From Melioribacteraceae bacterium (lineage in GTDB: Bacteria; Bacteroidota; Ignavibacteria; Ignavibacteriales; Melioribacteraceae), in the NCBI GenBank assembly GCA_026417375.1, contig JAOADJ010000008.1:160640-205965 (forward strand): a stretch of 45,326 nt of DNA, in the 5' to 3' direction. Below, one piece after another: positions 2,891-34,297 of the stretch. Each line of letters starts with the position of its first letter. Position 1 is the stretch's first letter. The notes below the pieces were generated by a model. The model did not search any database, was not told where the DNA came from, and was given only the letters and a program-made list of their open reading frames with translations. The position numbers and the translations under genes are program-made.

Positions 2891-3583
2891 TTATTTCTTC
2901 TTTTCATTTTTTGATTCTTTTTTCTCAATCTTTTTTTCTACAACTTTATCATCTTCTTCTTCAAAATCAAAATTTTTGTAATACATTTTTCTTGGTGCTT
3001 TGTGAATCATTACATCGTCTCCACAACAATTACAACAGCATTTACTTCTTCCATGATTCATTCTTTTATTAAAAAACATATAGTCATCATCTTCTTTTTC
3101 TTTTTTAATTATGACATTTACTTTAGCATCTTTTTCGTTTTCTTCTAAAAACTTTTCTGCATCTTTTCCTTCATAAATTTTTGTTTCTTCTTTTCCATCT
3201 TTTATAGTAGTAACAGTTACTTTTTTTATATCATCTTTTACTTCAACTTTTATTTTCTTTTTTTCTTTTGAATCAACATCAATTTGTTCAGTTTCATCTT
3301 CGTTATCCTTAAATATCATCATCTTTCTTTTTGGTATTTGAAAATTTTCATCAAAATTTTCAATCCACAAAAATGGTTTTGCCGTTTTAATTATTCTTTC
3401 AGCTTCATTACCTTCAAACACAACATCTTTTCCATCAACCTTTACAGTAACTTTTTCAACTTTTCCCTTTAAACTTTTTACTTTTTCTTTGAATGAATTA
3501 TTTTCTTGAGCGAATAATGAAATACTCGTTAAAAATAAAATCAAAAGAACAAAAAGCTTAGTTTTAATTTTTTGTGTCTCCAT
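2891..3583 (-). CDS. Exported Lys/Glu-rich protein with a cysteine cluster, function unknown
   Basis: I do not recognise this 230-residue protein. An N-terminal signal peptide is clear (basic start, hydrophobic run, then LFAQ as a probable cleavage site near residue 25), so it should be exported. The mature part is very rich in Lys, Glu and Asp. It contains two similar beta-like segments: one around residues 40-60 with VTVKVDGKDVVFEGNEAERI, and one around 120-145 with VTVTTIKDGKEETKIYEGKD, suggesting an internal duplication. Near residue 180 comes the cluster CCCNCCG, flanked by His and Met (FFNKRMNHGRSK), which could bind metal. An AGGAGAAAT-like ribosome site precedes the ATG. Confidence 0.8.
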   Translation of the reverse strand: METQKIKTKLFVLLILFLTSISLFAQENNSFKEKVKSLKGKVEKVTVKVDGKDVVFEGNEAERIIKTAKPFLWIENFDENFQIPKRKMMIFKDNEDETEQIDVDSKEKKKIKVEVKDDIKKVTVTTIKDGKEETKIYEGKDAEKFLEENEKDAKVNVIIKKEKEDDDYMFFNKRMNHGRSKCCCNCCGDDVMIHKAPRKMYYKNFDFEEEDDKVVEKKIEKKESKNEKKK

Positions 3584-17381: not shown

Positions 17382-20300
17382 TTAACCGTTTTCTCCGGTT
17401 AATCTTGCAATCTGAAGTAAATAAAATCTTAATAGGTCTTGTTCTTTTTTATTTAAAGCTTGTTCTTCAATTTTAATTATTCTTTTTGCTTCTTTAAGCG
17501 CTCTTACAATATTTATTGGTACTTCAACCATTTCTTGAGTTAGAGAGGATAGATAATCAACAGCGGCAGATAAAAACTGTTGCATGTTTTCATCTGAGTA
17601 GTTATTTAATTTAGGAGCTTTTATTGAACTTAATTTTTTGTTTGAAAATAAATTTTGTTTTTCGAAACCATTTTGTGAAAGAGAGTTTAACGCAATTGCT
17701 AAATCAACAAAACTTGATACACGCTGAAAAACTGGTGATTCAAGTAGTTTCCAAATTTCTTCTCTCCACATTTTAATTGCATTAGGAACTGATAATAATT
17801 TAATCATTTCCTTTTGCCAATTTTTTTCTATTGTATAATTAATTTTATCAAAAAGTTTTTCCGGATTTGTATTAAAAAATTCTGGTTGCAAAAGAATAGC
17901 AACATCTGGACGAACTGTTGGTAATAAGTCAATTATAAATTCATCTTTTTCGAAGAAATCATTTACATCAACGCCATGTCTTCTTATTAATTCTTTCTGA
18001 AAAAGTGGCAAATATTTTTTTATTGAATCAATATCTTCTCTTAAAGCTAATAATGCAGAATTTCCTGCCGGAAAAGCTTTTTCAATTCTATTTAAATAAA
18101 TCAAATCAAAATCTTGATAAATTCTAAGAGTATTTAAAATTTCATAAACAGGAAGTTTTGGCAAAACTCTATCAATAATCAAAGAAGAAATATTTCCTTC
18201 TGAAAATTGCTTTTTAGTTATTTCATCAAGCGTGCGAAATAATCCGGTTGTTAATTGATTAATTCCAAGCACAACTGTTTGAGATTGGTTATGTGCTATT
18301 GCTCTTAAAAGACTTCCATATTTTGAAAATGGTATAGTGCCGGCTATTCTTTCCAATATTTGATAGCCGATTTTTCCGGTATCGTTTTGCTGTGGTCTTA
18401 CTGTTGGTCTATCTCTTAATACAGGTGATGTTCTTCCTATGAAATAAGAAATAATATGAATACCAACAACATCAACATCATTTCCATATAAAATTTGTCT
18501 GAAATTTTTTTGATGTGTTAATAAAAATTCTTCAAAAATTTTATCACTATTTCCAATTGTTAATTGTTCAAGGTTTTTGTATCCGCGCGTTCTGAATTGT
18601 AATCTTGTTTCGCTAATTGGTTCGCCTGCTTTTAATATTTCGGATTCATAATATTTCTGAGATTCCTTTAAATGATAAATCAGTTGTGCATAATTTTTTA
18701 TTGGAATGTGTCTTAGTTTTTCTGAGATAGTACTTTGAAAAGTTCTTAAATCTCCACCTGCAAAAACACCAAGCAGAGGAGTAGTTGCATAAACAGTACT
18801 TCTTTTAGTTGATTGTTGAAGTAATTTTGAAAATCTAATATTTGAATTTTCATTTTGACTAAAAATTTTTTCACCGGCAAATGTTGAATAATAACCACCC
18901 TGCCGCTGCATTGGTTCGCCGCTTCCCATTTTGATTCTAATTTTTCCAATAAGATTATGAAGGGCAAGCCAATTGTAAATAGTTAATTTCGATTTTCTAA
19001 AAAGTTGCATAGCCATAGCCTGACTAACTTGCTGACTTAAATCTGAACCCGCAATAAAAATTTCAGTTATTATTTCATTAAATCTTTCTTCTGTTTCCTG
19101 ATTTAATCTTCTGCTTTGAAGTGAGTATTCCCAAACTTTGTTCAAAAAATTTTCTATGTTATTTACCGAATCAACATCTTCAAATAATGGGACAGAAGAA
19201 ATTTGAGGAATATTAGTTTCATTATTTTCTCTTAATATTTGTTCACGTTTTGCTCTTAGTTTTCTATCCAAAGAAATTAATGCTTCGGCTTTTGTACTCA
19301 TGCTAACCTGAAGTGTAAGCACCATTGCGGGATTTCCAAACTTGCCGGATATTTCATTTATTTCGTTTGCATTGTGAACAGTTGTATCTATTGCAAATTG
19401 ATCTTGTGCTAAAATTAATTTCTGATGTATTCTTGGAGTGATAATAAATCTTTTCAATAAATCGCGAAACATTCCGGCTTCAATCATCACTTGTTGATTT
19501 GAAATGTTTTCTTTGATTGTTGGAATTAATGCAAAAAGTGTTTTACGAAGTTTCTTATTTAAAGAGAAATAATATTCAAGTGTTTCTCTTCTTTTGTTTC
19601 TAAGCTCAAGCATTTTTCTTTCAAGTCTATCATTATGATACCACAAACTTGTAAGCGGGTCTTTTGCAATATGAAGCTTCATTCCAATTTTTCTTAAAGT
19701 TCCTGCTTCAATATTATATGGAAGAATTCCACGATATCTTTTTTCCAACTGATGTGTAAGTGAATTTATGTCATTAAAAAGAGAAATAAATTTTTCATTT
19801 GTTCTTGATAGATTTTCAATTTCATAAATTAATTTTGGATCAACTTTTATAGAGTTGTTAAGTTTTAAAAGTGTTCTTAAAATCTTTGCCTGTTGATTTA
19901 CATTTTCAATAAGTCCTGCAGCAACAAGTCTATGTCCCTGACCACTTGGACGGTTGCTTCCATCCCAATCGCCCCAAAAAGAAAGAAATGATTTGTACTC
20001 TTCATTTGTATTAATTAAAAAATAGTTTTCTGCATTGATTAATGATTTTAAATCAAGAATTAATTCTTCAGACTCTTCTGCTGAAACAATTGTTACATTC
20101 AAACCTAAGTATTCTTTTACTAATTCTTTTTGTAAATCTTTTATTAAATCTATTTTGAGTTGATTTTTACTAACTATATTGTGAAATATTTTTTCAAATA
20201 ATAATTCAGTTTTAATTGAATACATTTGTGTTGGATGAACGGTTCTGTCATAAAGTCTGTTTTTAAATTTCTTTTTTCTGCATTCTAAATCATCTTTCGA

Positions 20301-22919
20301 AAATTCATACTCAAGAATTTCTTCTAGTTTTTGATTTTTATCTTGTGTAAAAAGATTATAAAGTTCATTAATCAAATAAATTTTTTCTTGAAATTTATTT
20401 TTAAATATTGAAATTCTTTCCGGATAGAAATAATTAATAAATTCATTAAAATATTTTTTTTCGGTTAGTTCTATTTTGCTTTGAGAAGATATTTTTTTAT
20501 AAACATCATTTATGTTGTCATTTAATTTTTCAAACAAAAAATCAACTGGCAAAGAAACATGTATTTCTTTTTTCTTTTTTGATGTAAAAATTTTTTGTTC
20601 ATTAAATTCTTTTTTCTTGTATTGGCTTGATTCATTAGCAATATGTTTATTTAAATCAATAACAACTCTTCTGGTTTTTGCCAATAATATTTCGTCGTTA
20701 TCTGTTCCACCTAAAGTTAATCTGAATGTTTTTCTTCCGGCTTCAAATCCATCTTCGGTTCTTGCAAAAGTTGAAAGTGGAATTAATCCAATACCTTGTC
20801 TTGCTAATCCATAAGCAAGCCAATCCAAAGATAATCCATCAGGTAAATTTTCAATTATCATTTGCGGATACATACTTGCTTCAGGTGGTTTTATTTTAAT
20901 ACCAAATTGGTTTCTGGTTTTAGGTAAATTTTCAATTGCTTTTAATAATGCGTCGCTTCTTGCTTTAAATATTTTATTTCTCATTAACCAATATGAATCA
21001 ACAACCTCTTTTTTGTTTCTATAAAACAAGTATGTTAAAAAAATTGCTCCGATATTTGGTTTAATTGAGGAAATAACATTCCTAAATTTTTCTGCTATTT
21101 CCTGATTTCTTATTTCTATAACAGATAATCTTGCGCCAGCTAGTGAATCGGTTTTTGAAACCGAATGAACAGTGATTAAATAATTTCCTTCTTCTTCTGT
21201 TAAATACCCCTTTTTAATTAATTCATTTGTCAGCTGTCTTAATGTTTTTATTTCTTCTAAATTTTCTGTTGGAGTAACATTTTGATATGATAAATCATCT
21301 ATAACAAATATTTTATTTGAGAGTAACCACTTCAAAAGAAATTTTAAATCTTCCTCATCAAATTTATTTCCTGTAGCATTATGAGGATTATTAAAAACAA
21401 CAGCACCATATTTTTTCCAGTTTAAATTGTCATTTATTTTTCTTTTTACCGTGTCAATTATTTTTTCTTTATCTAAACCAAAGTTTTTATTTAATGGAAC
21501 AACTTCAACTTTTGGAAAACAATGTTCATATGTCCAGCTTAAATCAGGAAAAACAACTTCATCTAATCCACAATGAAACCCTAATAAAGCCAATGCTGTT
21601 CTTGACGATCCGCTGGCAACAAAACAATTTTCAAATTTATACTCAGGATGTTTTTCAAGAAAAGAATACAAAAAACTTTTTTCTAAATTTTTCTGCCATG
21701 TTGAATTATCAATGTTTTGAATAAGTTCATCAATCAGTGAAATTGTTTCTTTGCCTGAATAAAAATCTATTGGAAATTTATCTTCTAAATACTTTGTTTT
21801 ATTGTTTAACAGAACTAATTGCTTGTTGATTATTTTTTCAAAAGGATAAAAATGTTTTTGAACATTATCAAATTGTTTTTCAAAATGAAATTGTGCTTCA
21901 GAATATAATTCAATTACATCGTTTGATTTATTTGTATTGTTCTCTTCAAAAAAAGTTTTGTTGTTTAAGATAAAAGAAAGTAATTCTATTTCTGATGCCG
22001 AAGGAGTTCCTTTCAATTGAAAATGAATTGTTTCTATTATAGAAATAAATTCATAATAACCCGCAATAAATGTAATTGATAAATTTTTTAGCTTTGAATT
22101 GAAAATGCCGGGTGTTAAAATTCGCAAAACTCTATCCATCATCTTTGCTTCGCGAGCAAGTGAAAGATGGTTTGGTGCATCATTTGTTTCTATGAAAAAC
22201 AATGGGGCTTTAAGACTTAATTTTCTTAGTTCTCTTCTTGTTTCTTCTTTTAATAAACTTCCTATTATTAAAATATTTGGTTTAGTGTTTTCAATTTTGG
22301 TTGTTAAAAATTCTATTATACATTCTTCATCATAAAGTGTATTAAAGAATTTTAGACTATTAAAATTTTTAATGTGTGTTGGTAAATCAACATTAAAGAA
22401 AAAAATGTTTGCTGGTTTATGTAACAAAAATTTTGATAGAGCATGAAATAACATTCTTAAAGCTTCTGAAATTCCTCCAGAAGAAATGATAATTTCTCTG
22501 TTTCCGGTTTGTCCACCCAAATCGTAATTAAGTGCTTCCTGTTGATTTTTAGAAAGCCAGTCATAAAAATAATTTATTAAAAAATTTGGGTTTCTTTTAT
22601 TAAATCCACCACGTGGTGTGTAAGGTGCACTTTTTTCAATTAAGTTTTTTAAAAATTCTATTTTCGATTTATCAACTTCGTTAATTTCTAACTCTTCATA
22701 TATTTTTTCCAAAGAAGAGATTTCTTTTTTGTTTATATCTATATTAAGAATTGAACGTAAATATGCATAAACCAACTGTTCATCTTGAACAGGATTTCCA
22801 ATGTGAAAGTTTACTCTTTCAGAAACAGGAATTGGTGAAGAAGATGTTGCTTCGCTTATTTCTGATACGGTTGCTGCTTTAATATGTTTTATTGCAAAAT
22901 ATTTTTGTAAATCGTTCAC
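17382..22919 (-). CDS. Giant fusion: tandem aminotransferase-like regions plus a divergent PEP-carboxylase-like domain
   Basis: An 1845-residue protein in three parts. Residues ~1-340 resemble an aminotransferase fold (HIGNPVQDE at 39-47, YTPRGG at 100-105, SSGGISEALRMLF at 146-158, SKLKNLSITFIAG at 275-287) but lack clear catalytic motifs. Residues ~350-765 are a class I/II aminotransferase with NNPHNATGN (510-518), IDDLSYQ (540-546), the PLP lysine Lys589 in HSVSKTDSLAGARLS, and Arg733 in FRLTLGG. Residues ~870-1845 follow PEP carboxylase order: HPT (895-897), GDWDGSNRPSGQGHR (983-997), PLFEDVDSVNN (1244-1254), GSDLSQQ (1291-1297), the Gly loop 1331-1342, LRAI (1538-1541) and a C-terminal ENG. 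Several PEPC catalytic residues are replaced. The start is GTG; the next Met is at residue 156. It lies 5 bases after the SPFH gene. The PEPC relation is from remembered motifs. Confidence 0.75.
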   Translation of the reverse strand: MNDLQKYFAIKHIKAATVSEISEATSSSPIPVSERVNFHIGNPVQDEQLVYAYLRSILNIDINKKEISSLEKIYEELEINEVDKSKIEFLKNLIEKSAPYTPRGGFNKRNPNFLINYFYDWLSKNQQEALNYDLGGQTGNREIIISSGGISEALRMLFHALSKFLLHKPANIFFFNVDLPTHIKNFNSLKFFNTLYDEECIIEFLTTKIENTKPNILIIGSLLKEETRRELRKLSLKAPLFFIETNDAPNHLSLAREAKMMDRVLRILTPGIFNSKLKNLSITFIAGYYEFISIIETIHFQLKGTPSASEIELLSFILNNKTFFEENNTNKSNDVIELYSEAQFHFEKQFDNVQKHFYPFEKIINKQLVLLNNKTKYLEDKFPIDFYSGKETISLIDELIQNIDNSTWQKNLEKSFLYSFLEKHPEYKFENCFVASGSSRTALALLGFHCGLDEVVFPDLSWTYEHCFPKVEVVPLNKNFGLDKEKIIDTVKRKINDNLNWKKYGAVVFNNPHNATGNKFDEEDLKFLLKWLLSNKIFVIDDLSYQNVTPTENLEEIKTLRQLTNELIKKGYLTEEEGNYLITVHSVSKTDSLAGARLSVIEIRNQEIAEKFRNVISSIKPNIGAIFLTYLFYRNKKEVVDSYWLMRNKIFKARSDALLKAIENLPKTRNQFGIKIKPPEASMYPQMIIENLPDGLSLDWLAYGLARQGIGLIPLSTFARTEDGFEAGRKTFRLTLGGTDNDEILLAKTRRVVIDLNKHIANESSQYKKKEFNEQKIFTSKKKKEIHVSLPVDFLFEKLNDNINDVYKKISSQSKIELTEKKYFNEFINYFYPERISIFKNKFQEKIYLINELYNLFTQDKNQKLEEILEYEFSKDDLECRKKKFKNRLYDRTVHPTQMYSIKTELLFEKIFHNIVSKNQLKIDLIKDLQKELVKEYLGLNVTIVSAEESEELILDLKSLINAENYFLINTNEEYKSFLSFWGDWDGSNRPSGQGHRLVAAGLIENVNQQAKILRTLLKLNNSIKVDPKLIYEIENLSRTNEKFISLFNDINSLTHQLEKRYRGILPYNIEAGTLRKIGMKLHIAKDPLTSLWYHNDRLERKMLELRNKRRETLEYYFSLNKKLRKTLFALIPTIKENISNQQVMIEAGMFRDLLKRFIITPRIHQKLILAQDQFAIDTTVHNANEINEISGKFGNPAMVLTLQVSMSTKAEALISLDRKLRAKREQILRENNETNIPQISSVPLFEDVDSVNNIENFLNKVWEYSLQSRRLNQETEERFNEIITEIFIAGSDLSQQVSQAMAMQLFRKSKLTIYNWLALHNLIGKIRIKMGSGEPMQRQGGYYSTFAGEKIFSQNENSNIRFSKLLQQSTKRSTVYATTPLLGVFAGGDLRTFQSTISEKLRHIPIKNYAQLIYHLKESQKYYESEILKAGEPISETRLQFRTRGYKNLEQLTIGNSDKIFEEFLLTHQKNFRQILYGNDVDVVGIHIISYFIGRTSPVLRDRPTVRPQQNDTGKIGYQILERIAGTIPFSKYGSLLRAIAHNQSQTVVLGINQLTTGLFRTLDEITKKQFSEGNISSLIIDRVLPKLPVYEILNTLRIYQDFDLIYLNRIEKAFPAGNSALLALREDIDSIKKYLPLFQKELIRRHGVDVNDFFEKDEFIIDLLPTVRPDVAILLQPEFFNTNPEKLFDKINYTIEKNWQKEMIKLLSVPNAIKMWREEIWKLLESPVFQRVSSFVDLAIALNSLSQNGFEKQNLFSNKKLSSIKAPKLNNYSDENMQQFLSAAVDYLSSLTQEMVEVPINIVRALKEAKRIIKIEEQALNKKEQDLLRFYLLQIARLTGENG

Positions 22920-22924
22920 TTCTA

Positions 22925-23890
22925 CTACTTATCTTTCTTTTTGTCAGTTTTATTGAATGTGCTTTCTAAAAAATTTTGGAAAAGAGAAATTAAATCCACA
23001 CCTTGTGAAATTTCATTTGGGGCAAGATTAACAACTGTTCTTGCATTTTTAAGTGACTGACTTGCTTCTGCTAATTTTGCTGCTTGTGGTGAAAGTAATA
23101 AAAGTTCCGGATTGTTTTTTAATAACTCAAGTTCCTCTTTTTCAAATTCAAGATTTAATTTTTTTCTCTTTAATTCTTCCTCTGTTTTTTTATCTGCTAT
23201 CTGAGATTCTTTTTCAAGTTCTTTTTTCTTTAATTCAAGTTTTTTTAATTCGAGTTCATTTTCCATTAATGCAATTTCTTCATCAGCTTTTAGTTTCGCT
23301 TTTGCTGCTGTTATTCTGGCTTTCTGACTCAATAATTCTGTTTGCTCTAATATTCGCGCAGATTCCTGTTGGCGAATTGCTTCTGCTATTTTGCTGTCAA
23401 CAATTTCAAATGATTTAACTGAAATTGATATTATTTCAATTCCATATTTCTCTTTGCTTATTTCTAATTTTTCTGAAATATGATTTTGAATTTTTTCTGA
23501 AGAGATTTCTTCAACTTCATATTTATCAGTGAATTCTTTAACAAAACTTTCAATAACGGTCTCAAATTCTTTAATAGCTTTTGAAACCGCATTTTTATTC
23601 CATCCGCCAACTTTAATCAAGCTATCAATATTTTTTTCAGCAAGAGACGCAACCAAATTTATTTTTACTTTAACATCTAAACTTCCTTTTGCCGTTGCCT
23701 CTATTTCTAATTCTGAAGTGTGTGTTGTTTTGGGTAACACAAGACTAAAATGCCTTGGATAAAATTTAGATTTTCTTTTTCCTATTTTATCTTTTGTTTC
23801 AAAAAGAATTAATTGATCCGGTTTTTTTAACCTATATTCTAAAAGCAGATATACAATTAATGCTGTTATAATTATAATGAACCAAAACAT
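22925..23890 (-). CDS. SPFH/band-7 domain membrane protein
   Basis: A 321-residue protein of the SPFH (stomatin/prohibitin/flotillin) superfamily, which forms membrane-associated oligomeric assemblies. One N-terminal membrane segment (residues ~2-20), an SPFH domain (about 25-180, with IEATAKGSLDVKVKINL and IEIISISVKSFEI followed by IAEAIRQQESARILEQ), then a long charged coiled coil (about 180-265) rich in Lys, Glu and Leu. A good AGGAG site precedes the ATG. The next gene on this strand, the giant fusion protein, begins 5 bases after the stop, so the two are very likely cotranscribed and perhaps work at the same membrane site. Confidence 0.85.
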   Translation of the reverse strand: MFWFIIIITALIVYLLLEYRLKKPDQLILFETKDKIGKRKSKFYPRHFSLVLPKTTHTSELEIEATAKGSLDVKVKINLVASLAEKNIDSLIKVGGWNKNAVSKAIKEFETVIESFVKEFTDKYEVEEISSEKIQNHISEKLEISKEKYGIEIISISVKSFEIVDSKIAEAIRQQESARILEQTELLSQKARITAAKAKLKADEEIALMENELELKKLELKKKELEKESQIADKKTEEELKRKKLNLEFEKEELELLKNNPELLLLSPQAAKLAEASQSLKNARTVVNLAPNEISQGVDLISLFQNFLESTFNKTDKKKDK

Positions 23891-33295: not shown

Positions 33296-34297
33296 TTATA
33301 ATATAAATGATGCTAATCCAAAATATGTTATTATTGTACTAATATCTGCCAAAGCTAAAGTAATTGGTCCGGCTGCAATTTTAGGATCTAGTTTTGTTTT
33401 ATGTAATATTGTTGGAATTATTAATCCTAAAAGTGAAGCTATTATTTGTATAAAAACTATACTCAATCCGATTGTCAATGATGAATAAAAATCTTTTTTC
33501 CAGATTATAGCAACTGTAAAAACAACGATTGAACATGTTAATCCTAAAAGAGAAGCTGTTTTAATTTCTTTAATAAAATTTTTTGTAAACCATTTTAAAG
33601 TTGGTTTTGTGGTTCTTAATGTTTGAATTGCCACTGTCATAGACTGAATACTAATACTTTCACCCAATCCTAAAACTAAAGTAAAGAAAAAAACAAGTAT
33701 TATACTTTCTGTTAATGTTGTTTGAAAAACTCCTGTTAACAATGCACAAACAATTCCACTTGAAACGGTTGCGAATAGCCAAGGTATTCTTAATCTCCAT
33801 GCTTTTAATGGTGAAGCGTTTCTTATTTCATTTATTCTAAAACCTATAGTTTCAAAAATTGTATCGTAATTATATTTTTCTAAATCTTCATCGCCTTCAT
33901 CTTTTTCTTCAAGTAGTTCATCAGTAAATAAATTAACATCAACAATTCCTAAAATTCTTCTTTCACTATCAACAACAGGAAAAGCAAGAAATTTATAAGT
34001 TGCAAAAAATTCAAGGGCGTCATAAACTGTTGCTTCATAAGGTAAAGCCGCAACTCTTTTAACCATTATTTCTTCTATTTTCTGATTTTCTTGTGCTATT
34101 AAAATTCTTCTTGTAGGCAAAACACCAACTAATTTATTTTCATCATCAACTACATAGAAGTAAACTATTCTTTCGCCAACGCCTTCGTTTCTTATTTTAT
34201 TTAATGCTTCGTGTACAGTTAAATTTTTATTTAAAGAAGTAAAATCTTTTCTTGCAAAGTCTAAAATTTTTTGACCATATGTTGGTTTTGATTGCAT
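33296..34297 (-). CDS. MgtE-like divalent cation transporter without the N-terminal domain
   Basis: A 333-residue protein: two CBS domains (about residues 15-135) followed by five membrane segments (about 170-333) of the MgtE Mg2+ channel type. Motifs include AWRLRIPWLFATVSSG, LGLGESISIQSMTVAI (MgtE has GGNAGTQS here) and DPKIAAGPITLALADISTI with the Asp that binds Mg2+ in MgtE pores. The usual MgtE N-terminal helical domain (about 120 residues) is absent, making this a short form in which gating would depend on the CBS pair alone. It stands between gyrB and gyrA on the same strand. Confidence 0.85.
   Translation of the reverse strand: MQSKPTYGQKILDFARKDFTSLNKNLTVHEALNKIRNEGVGERIVYFYVVDDENKLVGVLPTRRILIAQENQKIEEIMVKRVAALPYEATVYDALEFFATYKFLAFPVVDSERRILGIVDVNLFTDELLEEKDEGDEDLEKYNYDTIFETIGFRINEIRNASPLKAWRLRIPWLFATVSSGIVCALLTGVFQTTLTESIILVFFFTLVLGLGESISIQSMTVAIQTLRTTKPTLKWFTKNFIKEIKTASLLGLTCSIVVFTVAIIWKKDFYSSLTIGLSIVFIQIIASLLGLIIPTILHKTKLDPKIAAGPITLALADISTIITYFGLASFIL

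Follow-up and report, generated by a model that had tools for sequence, protein, structure and literature searches.

A conserved fusion of an aminotransferase with a divergent phosphoenolpyruvate carboxylase-fold domain, paired with an SPFH gene in Ignavibacteria, as a candidate route to aspartate

Phosphoenolpyruvate carboxylase (PEPC) is a central CO2-fixing enzyme of which two sequence kinds are recognised, the bacterial/plant and the archaeal, and a protein in which a PEPC-like domain is joined to an aminotransferase raises the question of what reaction the two parts would carry out together. Such a protein was proposed in an initial annotation of a 45,326-nucleotide stretch of DNA from a Melioribacteraceae bacterium (assembly GCA_026417375.1, contig JAOADJ010000008.1, positions 160,640 to 205,965; this whole stretch is referred to as the window, and coordinates are counted from its first nucleotide). 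The gene lies on the minus strand at 17382..22919, begins with GTG and encodes 1845 amino acids in a frame without internal stop; full-length relatives exist in related genomes, and the open reading frame is borne out as a real gene. PEPC makes oxaloacetate from phosphoenolpyruvate (PEP) and an aspartate aminotransferase turns oxaloacetate into aspartate. The architecture of the fusion is well supported by the data presented here, and from it we infer that the protein may join the consecutive steps from PEP to oxaloacetate and on to aspartate, as an accessory, membrane-tethered bifunctional enzyme that makes aspartate from PEP, bicarbonate and glutamate, a reading whose chances we consider to be about even.

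The C-terminal domain comprises residues 846-1845 (17385..20384, minus strand) and its AlphaFold2 model has a mean predicted local distance difference test score (pLDDT) of 79.9. When the model was compared by Foldseek with the Protein Data Bank (PDB), all of the 48 matches at E<=0.001 were PEPCs and the next match fell to E 0.17. VIA-align placed the archaeal-type PEPC 3odm_D at the top, with a Z of 19.6, a root-mean-square deviation of 3.6 and 17% identity over 484 aligned residues. For E. coli PEPC the entry 1jqn gave Z 16.1, a fold match over E. coli residues 130-882, and the older entry 1fiy gave Z 11.5, and the best non-PEPC rows (CLYBL and malate synthase) were at about Z 12, the top one at 12.4. 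In our view the matches of this model decide the predicted fold of residues 846-1845 in favour of PEPC, in line with what the initial annotation had expected of a structure search.

The active site was compared with that of E. coli PEPC in an alignment of 40 rows, which holds the window protein and 39 intact proteins; 40 loci were fetched out of the 55 genomes found to carry the fusion (see below), and the split gene of one locus (L086, genome G504) was excluded. Residues were equated by motif order and by predicted strands, least surely in the case of Arg396. Seven PEPC landmarks, all encoded on the minus strand, are invariant in the 40 rows: His895 (20235..20237), equivalent to His138; Arg1163 (19431..19433), the proposed equivalent of Arg396, in a 'TPRI' motif common to 3odm; Glu1247 (19179..19181), equivalent to Glu506; Asp1293 (19041..19043), equivalent to Asp543; Arg1339 (18903..18905), equivalent to Arg587; Arg1539 of 'LRAI' (18303..18305), equivalent to Arg713; and the last residue, Gly1845 (17385..17387), which resembles the glycine that ends E. 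coli PEPC. Arg1504, the proposed equivalent of Arg699, is also found in all 40. The first five of the landmarks lie in or just after successive predicted strands of the model. Glu506 and Asp543 are metal ligands in PEPC, and Arg396, Lys546, Arg699 and Arg713 are likewise functional residues of the enzyme. The motifs HPT at 895, GDWDG at 983, PLFED at 1244, GSD at 1291-1293, the Gly-rich loop from 1331, LRAI at 1538 and the C-terminal NG were all found where the initial annotation had put them. Roles in PEPC for the catalytic histidine, Arg587 and the C-terminal glycine are described in excerpts of PMC3894211 and PMC11832675.

The N-terminal 770 residues had been noted to carry aminotransferase motifs. 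This stands for residues 393-741, where the best aminotransferase-profile stretches lie, and residues 1-326 proved to be a degenerate aminotransferase-like lobe that sequence searches do not recognise; an organisation in two lobes had gone unmentioned in the initial annotation. Residues 385-770 (20610..21767, minus strand) form an intact class I/II aminotransferase domain that matches PF00155 over residues 420-741 with an E-value of 1.6e-18 (67.5 bits, cut-off 19.7). Lys589, Asn514, Asp542, Tyr545, Arg597 and Arg733, identified by motif as the pyridoxal 5'-phosphate (PLP) site, are invariant in all 40 rows, and this set agrees with the PLP-site residues given in an excerpt of PMC6715241. Structural comparison by VIA with class I/II aminotransferases gave Z values of about 29-32 among the rows listed, and Foldseek E-values went down to 9.2e-16. 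The best NCBIfam subfamily match reached 45.6 bits against a cut-off of 389 and the aspartate aminotransferase equivalog NF041091 reached 28.6 bits against a cut-off of 550; no substrate-specific residue could be placed surely, and oxaloacetate is a presumed substrate of the aminotransferase.

Residues 1-326 (21942..22919, minus strand) comprise an N-terminal arm and the degenerate aminotransferase-like lobe, delineated by the strands of an AlphaFold2 model and by a match between hidden Markov model profiles (HMM-HMM). The model of residues 1-790 (pLDDT 87.7; predicted TM-score, pTM, 0.87) contains two successive seven-strand lobes that are alike in spacing, with strands starting at 143, 170, 189, 215, 240, 264 and 282 in lobe 1 and at 432, 454, 470, 505, 538, 581 and 598 in lobe 2. 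The HMM-HMM comparison aligned lobe 1 collinearly with 17 stand-alone aminotransferases over 202 columns from a 'PYxPRGG' motif, with a score of 36.0 (P 5.8e-4), compared with at most 26.3 across 60 column shuffles and with 20.6 for the reversed profile. Searches with the lobe 1 sequence retrieved no aminotransferase, one of them returning two chance PDB matches at E 0.46 and 0.66 and a second one 14 scattered families, none of them aminotransferases. The lobe is without the conserved Schiff-base lysine and carries, in all 40 rows, Tyr100 of the 'PYxPRGG' motif at the place of Tyr70, a residue that reaches over from the neighbouring subunit in aspartate aminotransferase. In that enzyme Tyr70 touches the PLP phosphate and is close to the dimer interface (PMC6715241, in excerpt). 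Most simply, lobe 1 would stand in for the second subunit in cis, having lost its own PLP lysine and kept the tyrosine that would be offered to the PLP phosphate of its partner. In the VIA comparison, individual aminotransferase chains align within residues 2 to ~762 of the model, which would agree with lobe 2 being served by an N-terminal arm at the beginning of the protein.

The same fusion was found in related genomes, as the initial annotation had suggested looking for. Of 391 sampled genomes of the class, 55 contain a relative of the C-terminal 972 residues; in 43 it is one open frame of at least 1800 amino acids, and in the other 12 the frame is shortened or broken, in several cases at the edge of a contig. 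With the whole protein as query against a 296-genome sample of the phylum, the fusion was detected in 12 genomes, the own genome included, and a profile search of the phylum matched 9 of 148 genomes, all of which bear the fusion; in both searches the positive genomes belong to the same class and one of them (G062) has a split gene. No stand-alone PEPC-like part was found among the 148 genomes by the profile search. Nine further matches from the same phylum in the 296-genome search were rejected, being frames of 399-444 amino acids with the aminotransferase part only. The class search, the 296-genome search and a search of the class for classical PEPC scored at most two candidates per genome (at most five in the search for the SPFH protein described below), and the counts could therefore be low. 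A single open frame longer than 1800 amino acids is present in 39 of the 40 fetched loci, which come from different genomes. The nearest named relative is that of Stygiobacter electus (Ignavibacteria, Melioribacteraceae), with 87% identity over the C-terminal 972 residues, and identity to the window protein drops to ~47% among relatives (to 50% among the alignment rows), so that the joined architecture is old and maintained. In a few assemblies (L012/L030 of G062, L086 of G504, G372 and G438) the gene is split by a stop or frameshift inside the PEPC-like part, by sequencing error or by a real division.

On a tree built from the C-terminal domain, 7 changes are required for family f1, of which well-supported branches force at least 6, and 4 for family f2 (3 of them forced), with family f8 as one clade among the f1 rows. 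The tree suggests that the fusion and its SPFH partner, whose occurrence is patchy, have moved between families, with old duplication and loss as the alternative. An exact-peptide-pattern scan of genome contigs returned a single relative, no relative was found among viral contigs, and the plasmid search gave one chance match at E 0.9.

Directly upstream of the fusion, and on the same strand, is a gene for a 321-residue SPFH/Band-7 protein (22925..23890, minus strand), which ends 5 bp before the fusion start codon and had gone unnoticed in the initial annotation of the fusion. It matches PF01145 with 29.6 bits (cut-off 23.6) and, judged by eye on an alignment of 40, has a hydrophobic N-terminal stretch and a coiled-coil-like tail. 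A first clustering of neighbours recovered this family in 35 of 41 loci, the window included, and by tblastn 39 of 40 loci have the gene next to the fusion and in the same orientation; the contig of the fortieth (L097) starts 5 bases upstream. No other sense-strand gene family recurs at most loci within the few kb of flank that were clustered. Searching the same 391 class genomes for the SPFH protein found it in 55, such that 54 genomes have both genes, one has the fusion alone (G484), one the SPFH gene alone (G423) and 335 have neither (Fisher P ~3e-64, relatedness uncorrected). In both exceptions the gene that is present sits at a contig edge, and the pairing is therefore close to absolute; conversely, this SPFH subfamily is almost exclusive to fusion genomes (54 of its 55). 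A role in defence was considered and set aside, the fusion and the SPFH protein having no match at E<=0.1 among the defence proteins of PADLOC, the sole database compared. There is precedent for an SPFH cage around a partner enzyme in HflK/HflC with AAA+ proteases (PMC11260169, in excerpt).

Taken as a mechanism, residues 385-770 would act as a working PLP aminotransferase, with lobe 1 as its partner in cis, and residues 846-1845 would act as a highly diverged PEPC with an archaeal-like active site. Oxaloacetate would link the two, and the net reaction would most likely be PEP, bicarbonate and glutamate to aspartate, 2-oxoglutarate and phosphate. By analogy with known SPFH assemblies, the upstream protein would most likely be a membrane-bound ring or cage that binds the enzyme and anchors or encloses it.

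Several observations weigh against this interpretation. The initial annotation had expected profile searches to recover PEPC as well, and here it was not sustained: the PEPC profiles of Pfam, namely PF00311 for the bacterial/plant and PF14010 for the archaeal kind, and those of NCBIfam all miss the window protein, and neither Pfam family has a match in its genome. When 40 relatives were scanned, three touched PF00311 (best E 0.0085) and one touched PF14010 (E 0.064); the unrelated family PF01877 touched 10 of these relatives (best E 0.022), and the Pfam PEPC touches are therefore close to noise. In NCBIfam, NF000584 and the archaeal model TIGR02751, both PEPC, were each touched by four relatives (best E 0.0016 and 0.008, respectively) and top the list by member count, and a PF00311 search of the class genomes gave sub-threshold matches to three more fusions, with E-values between 4.8e-4 and 8.4e-4. 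When the domain was compared with 19 PEPCs by HMM-HMM, the part from before PLFE to GRGG aligned with a score of 44.0 (P 6.2e-4) in one direction and 34.4 (P 8.6e-3) in the opposite one, for which 60 column shuffles gave a maximum of 32.8. The sequence-level match to PEPC is thus weak and direction-dependent, and therefore suggestive only when taken by itself. A PDB sequence search with the C-terminal domain gave no match, its profile version gave one chance match at E 0.51, and weak Pfam matches to DED, CARD, UPF0175 and RNA_binding were judged to be chance. In the model, the global TM-scores are low (0.26-0.39 by query), and the placement of domains is therefore different or uncertain; pLDDT is below 50 at 1334-1345, which holds Arg1339, and at 1500-1539, which holds Arg1504 and, at its edge, Arg1539. 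A direct HMM-HMM comparison of lobe 1 with lobe 2 was also negative (P 0.16).

To these are added points from the active site and from the genomes. The position of Lys546 is taken by Gln1296, glutamine in all 40 rows, and His579, which an excerpt of PMC11832675 reports as important for the activity of E. coli PEPC, is lost, with Met in 26, Leu in 13 and Ile in 1 of the rows. Classical PEPC shows no association with the fusion: it is present in 11 of the 55 genomes that carry the fusion and in 71 of the 336 that do not (Fisher P 1). The own genome contains 17 PF00155 matches, the fusion included, and when the six best stand-alone proteins were scanned, two were most like aspartate aminotransferases, with 454 and 317 bits and under the equivalog cut-offs; the better one (L131) had its 454 bits to NF004769, with a cut-off of 617. 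With such genes available, the fused aminotransferase may be unneeded for aspartate. ATP-dependent PEP carboxykinase (PEPCK) is also present, and because of this, of the stand-alone aspartate-aminotransferase-like genes and of the lack of association with classical PEPC, the fusion/SPFH unit is probably accessory and not the sole route of the cell to oxaloacetate or aspartate. Elsewhere in the genome (G000:C27, 1610-9366), the ATP-dependent PEPCK gene is close to two aspartate-aminotransferase-like genes, so that stand-alone genes for oxaloacetate and aspartate cluster away from the fusion.

The altered active site is the ground for the main rival explanation, because the glutamine at 546 is invariant here, as opposed to Lys in E. 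coli and Met in two archaeal-type sequences. In this explanation the chemistry has changed: PEP or its enolate and a divalent metal would still be bound, the second substrate would not be bicarbonate or the product would not be oxaloacetate, and the aminotransferase would act on that other keto acid. The combination of Gln at Lys546, Ser at Arg581 (38 of 40 rows, Cys in the other 2) and Met, Leu or Ile at His579 with retention of the residues common to both kinds of PEPC is what would be expected, an active site that is altered and yet invariant suggests a selected function over decay, and a patchy, seemingly family-crossing distribution is more in keeping with a specialised pathway than with core metabolism. 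However, archaeal-type PEPC, which is treated as a true PEPC in an excerpt of the review PMC8100219, is likewise without Lys at 546 and Arg at 581; in an alignment of 3odm with an archaeal-type PEPC of the class (L114), read by motif, this kind has Met at the former position and Cys or Val at the latter. The window domain thus keeps the residues common to the two kinds of PEPC and lacks those found in the bacterial kind alone. Moreover, no recurrent pathway partner that would point elsewhere was found within the few kb of flank that were clustered. We regard a changed chemistry as possible, if on the unlikely side.

A second explanation takes the PEPC-like domain to be catalytically dead, sensing PEP or aspartate in order to regulate the aminotransferase or the assembly of SPFH. 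This would account for a sequence that lies below detection by PEPC profiles and has lost Lys546, His579 and Arg581, and aspartate is described in an excerpt of PMC8100219 as an inhibitor of archaeal-type PEPC competitive with PEP. The residues that correspond to the catalytic base, the two metal ligands and the arginines binding PEP are nevertheless invariant in all 40 rows, and retention of the catalytic histidine would be unexpected in a pure sensor; a dead sensor is in our judgement improbable. The same low probability is given to the fusion being the ordinary anaplerotic PEPC of organisms that have lost the classical enzyme. The own genome has no match to PF00311 or to PYC_OADA, as this would predict, but it does have the ATP-dependent PEPCK noted above, the classical enzyme is as frequent with the fusion as without it, 265 of the 391 class genomes have neither the fusion nor classical PEPC, and so simple a role leaves the SPFH partner unexplained. 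Replacement of classical PEPC is, in view of these equal frequencies, unsupported as an explanation. A chimeric assembly or a chance open frame, to which the 12 genomes with shorter or broken frames (G504 among the broken) might seem to point, is scarcely credible given one frame of more than 1800 amino acids in 39 of 40 loci with conserved residues throughout. Apart from the fusion, another diverged form of PEPC was observed in G426, G434, G584 and G109, with frames of 849-855 amino acids and a best stretch of 374-403 bits, compared with ~670-1040 bits for most full-length PEPC frames; G584 also has the fusion.

Returning to a bifunctional aspartate-forming enzyme, its parts belong to known kinds. 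With archaeal-type PEPC (PF14010; 3odm), the best VIA match, the C-terminal domain shares the motifs HP, TPRI, PL(F/V)E, SD and GxGxxxxR in the same order and the absence of Lys546 and Arg581, whereas it is fused, is not matched by the profile, has Gln and not Met at 546, and with ~1000 residues is about twice as long as the 495-560 residues of that kind, whose size is put at ~55-60 kDa in an excerpt of PMC8100219. Bacterial/plant PEPC (PF00311; E. coli Ppc) has the fold in common with it as well as GDxDG, PLFE, SD, LRAI and the terminal Gly in the same order, and differs in being recognised by its profile, in retaining K546, H579 and R581, in a shorter C-terminal half and in the absence of a fused aminotransferase. 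Unlike the class I/II PLP aminotransferases (PF00155), whose family match and full PLP site are found in residues 385-770, the fusion has two lobes per chain, the first of them degenerate, and its subfamily is not assignable. The partner gene resembles HflK/HflC-type cages in its SPFH/Band-7 domain and coiled-coil-like tail, but it represents one private SPFH subfamily whose partner is a metabolic enzyme and not a protease, and its association with the enzyme is proposed here by analogy. Judged by titles and the starts of abstracts among the open-access literature matches listed, there is no description of the fusion architecture or of its pairing with SPFH.

The surroundings of the locus are those of an apparent replication origin, the window containing genes that we take, from their translations, to be dnaA, dnaN, recF, gyrB and gyrA, and therefore apparently lying close to the origin. 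Between the presumed gyrA and gyrB, and read in the same direction, is a gene resembling MgtE/CBS-domain divalent cation transporters (33296-34297). The window also encodes, at 2891-3583, a 230-residue protein without Pfam match at E<=0.001, in which a likely signal peptide, stretches rich in Lys, Glu and Asp and a Cys-rich patch can be recognised by eye.

A further extension of the preferred reading, and one that we consider unlikely as a whole, is a transferable two-gene unit in which a membrane cage built by the private SPFH protein surrounds the enzyme, the carboxylase hands oxaloacetate directly to the self-dimerised aminotransferase, and bicarbonate and an amino group become aspartate inside a protein-walled membrane compartment; if true, it would to our knowledge be the first case of an SPFH assembly that serves a central-metabolic step. 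Leaving the cage aside, the fusion possibly represents a third lineage of PEPC, one that is invisible to profiles, shares the active-site set and is fused to an aminotransferase, and such a lineage would extend the family beyond its two recognised kinds. If the proposed reaction is true, the fusion would be a naturally occurring single-chain path leading from bicarbonate to an amino acid, and its private SPFH gene, with which it is almost invariably paired, provides a testable case for the role of bacterial SPFH proteins.

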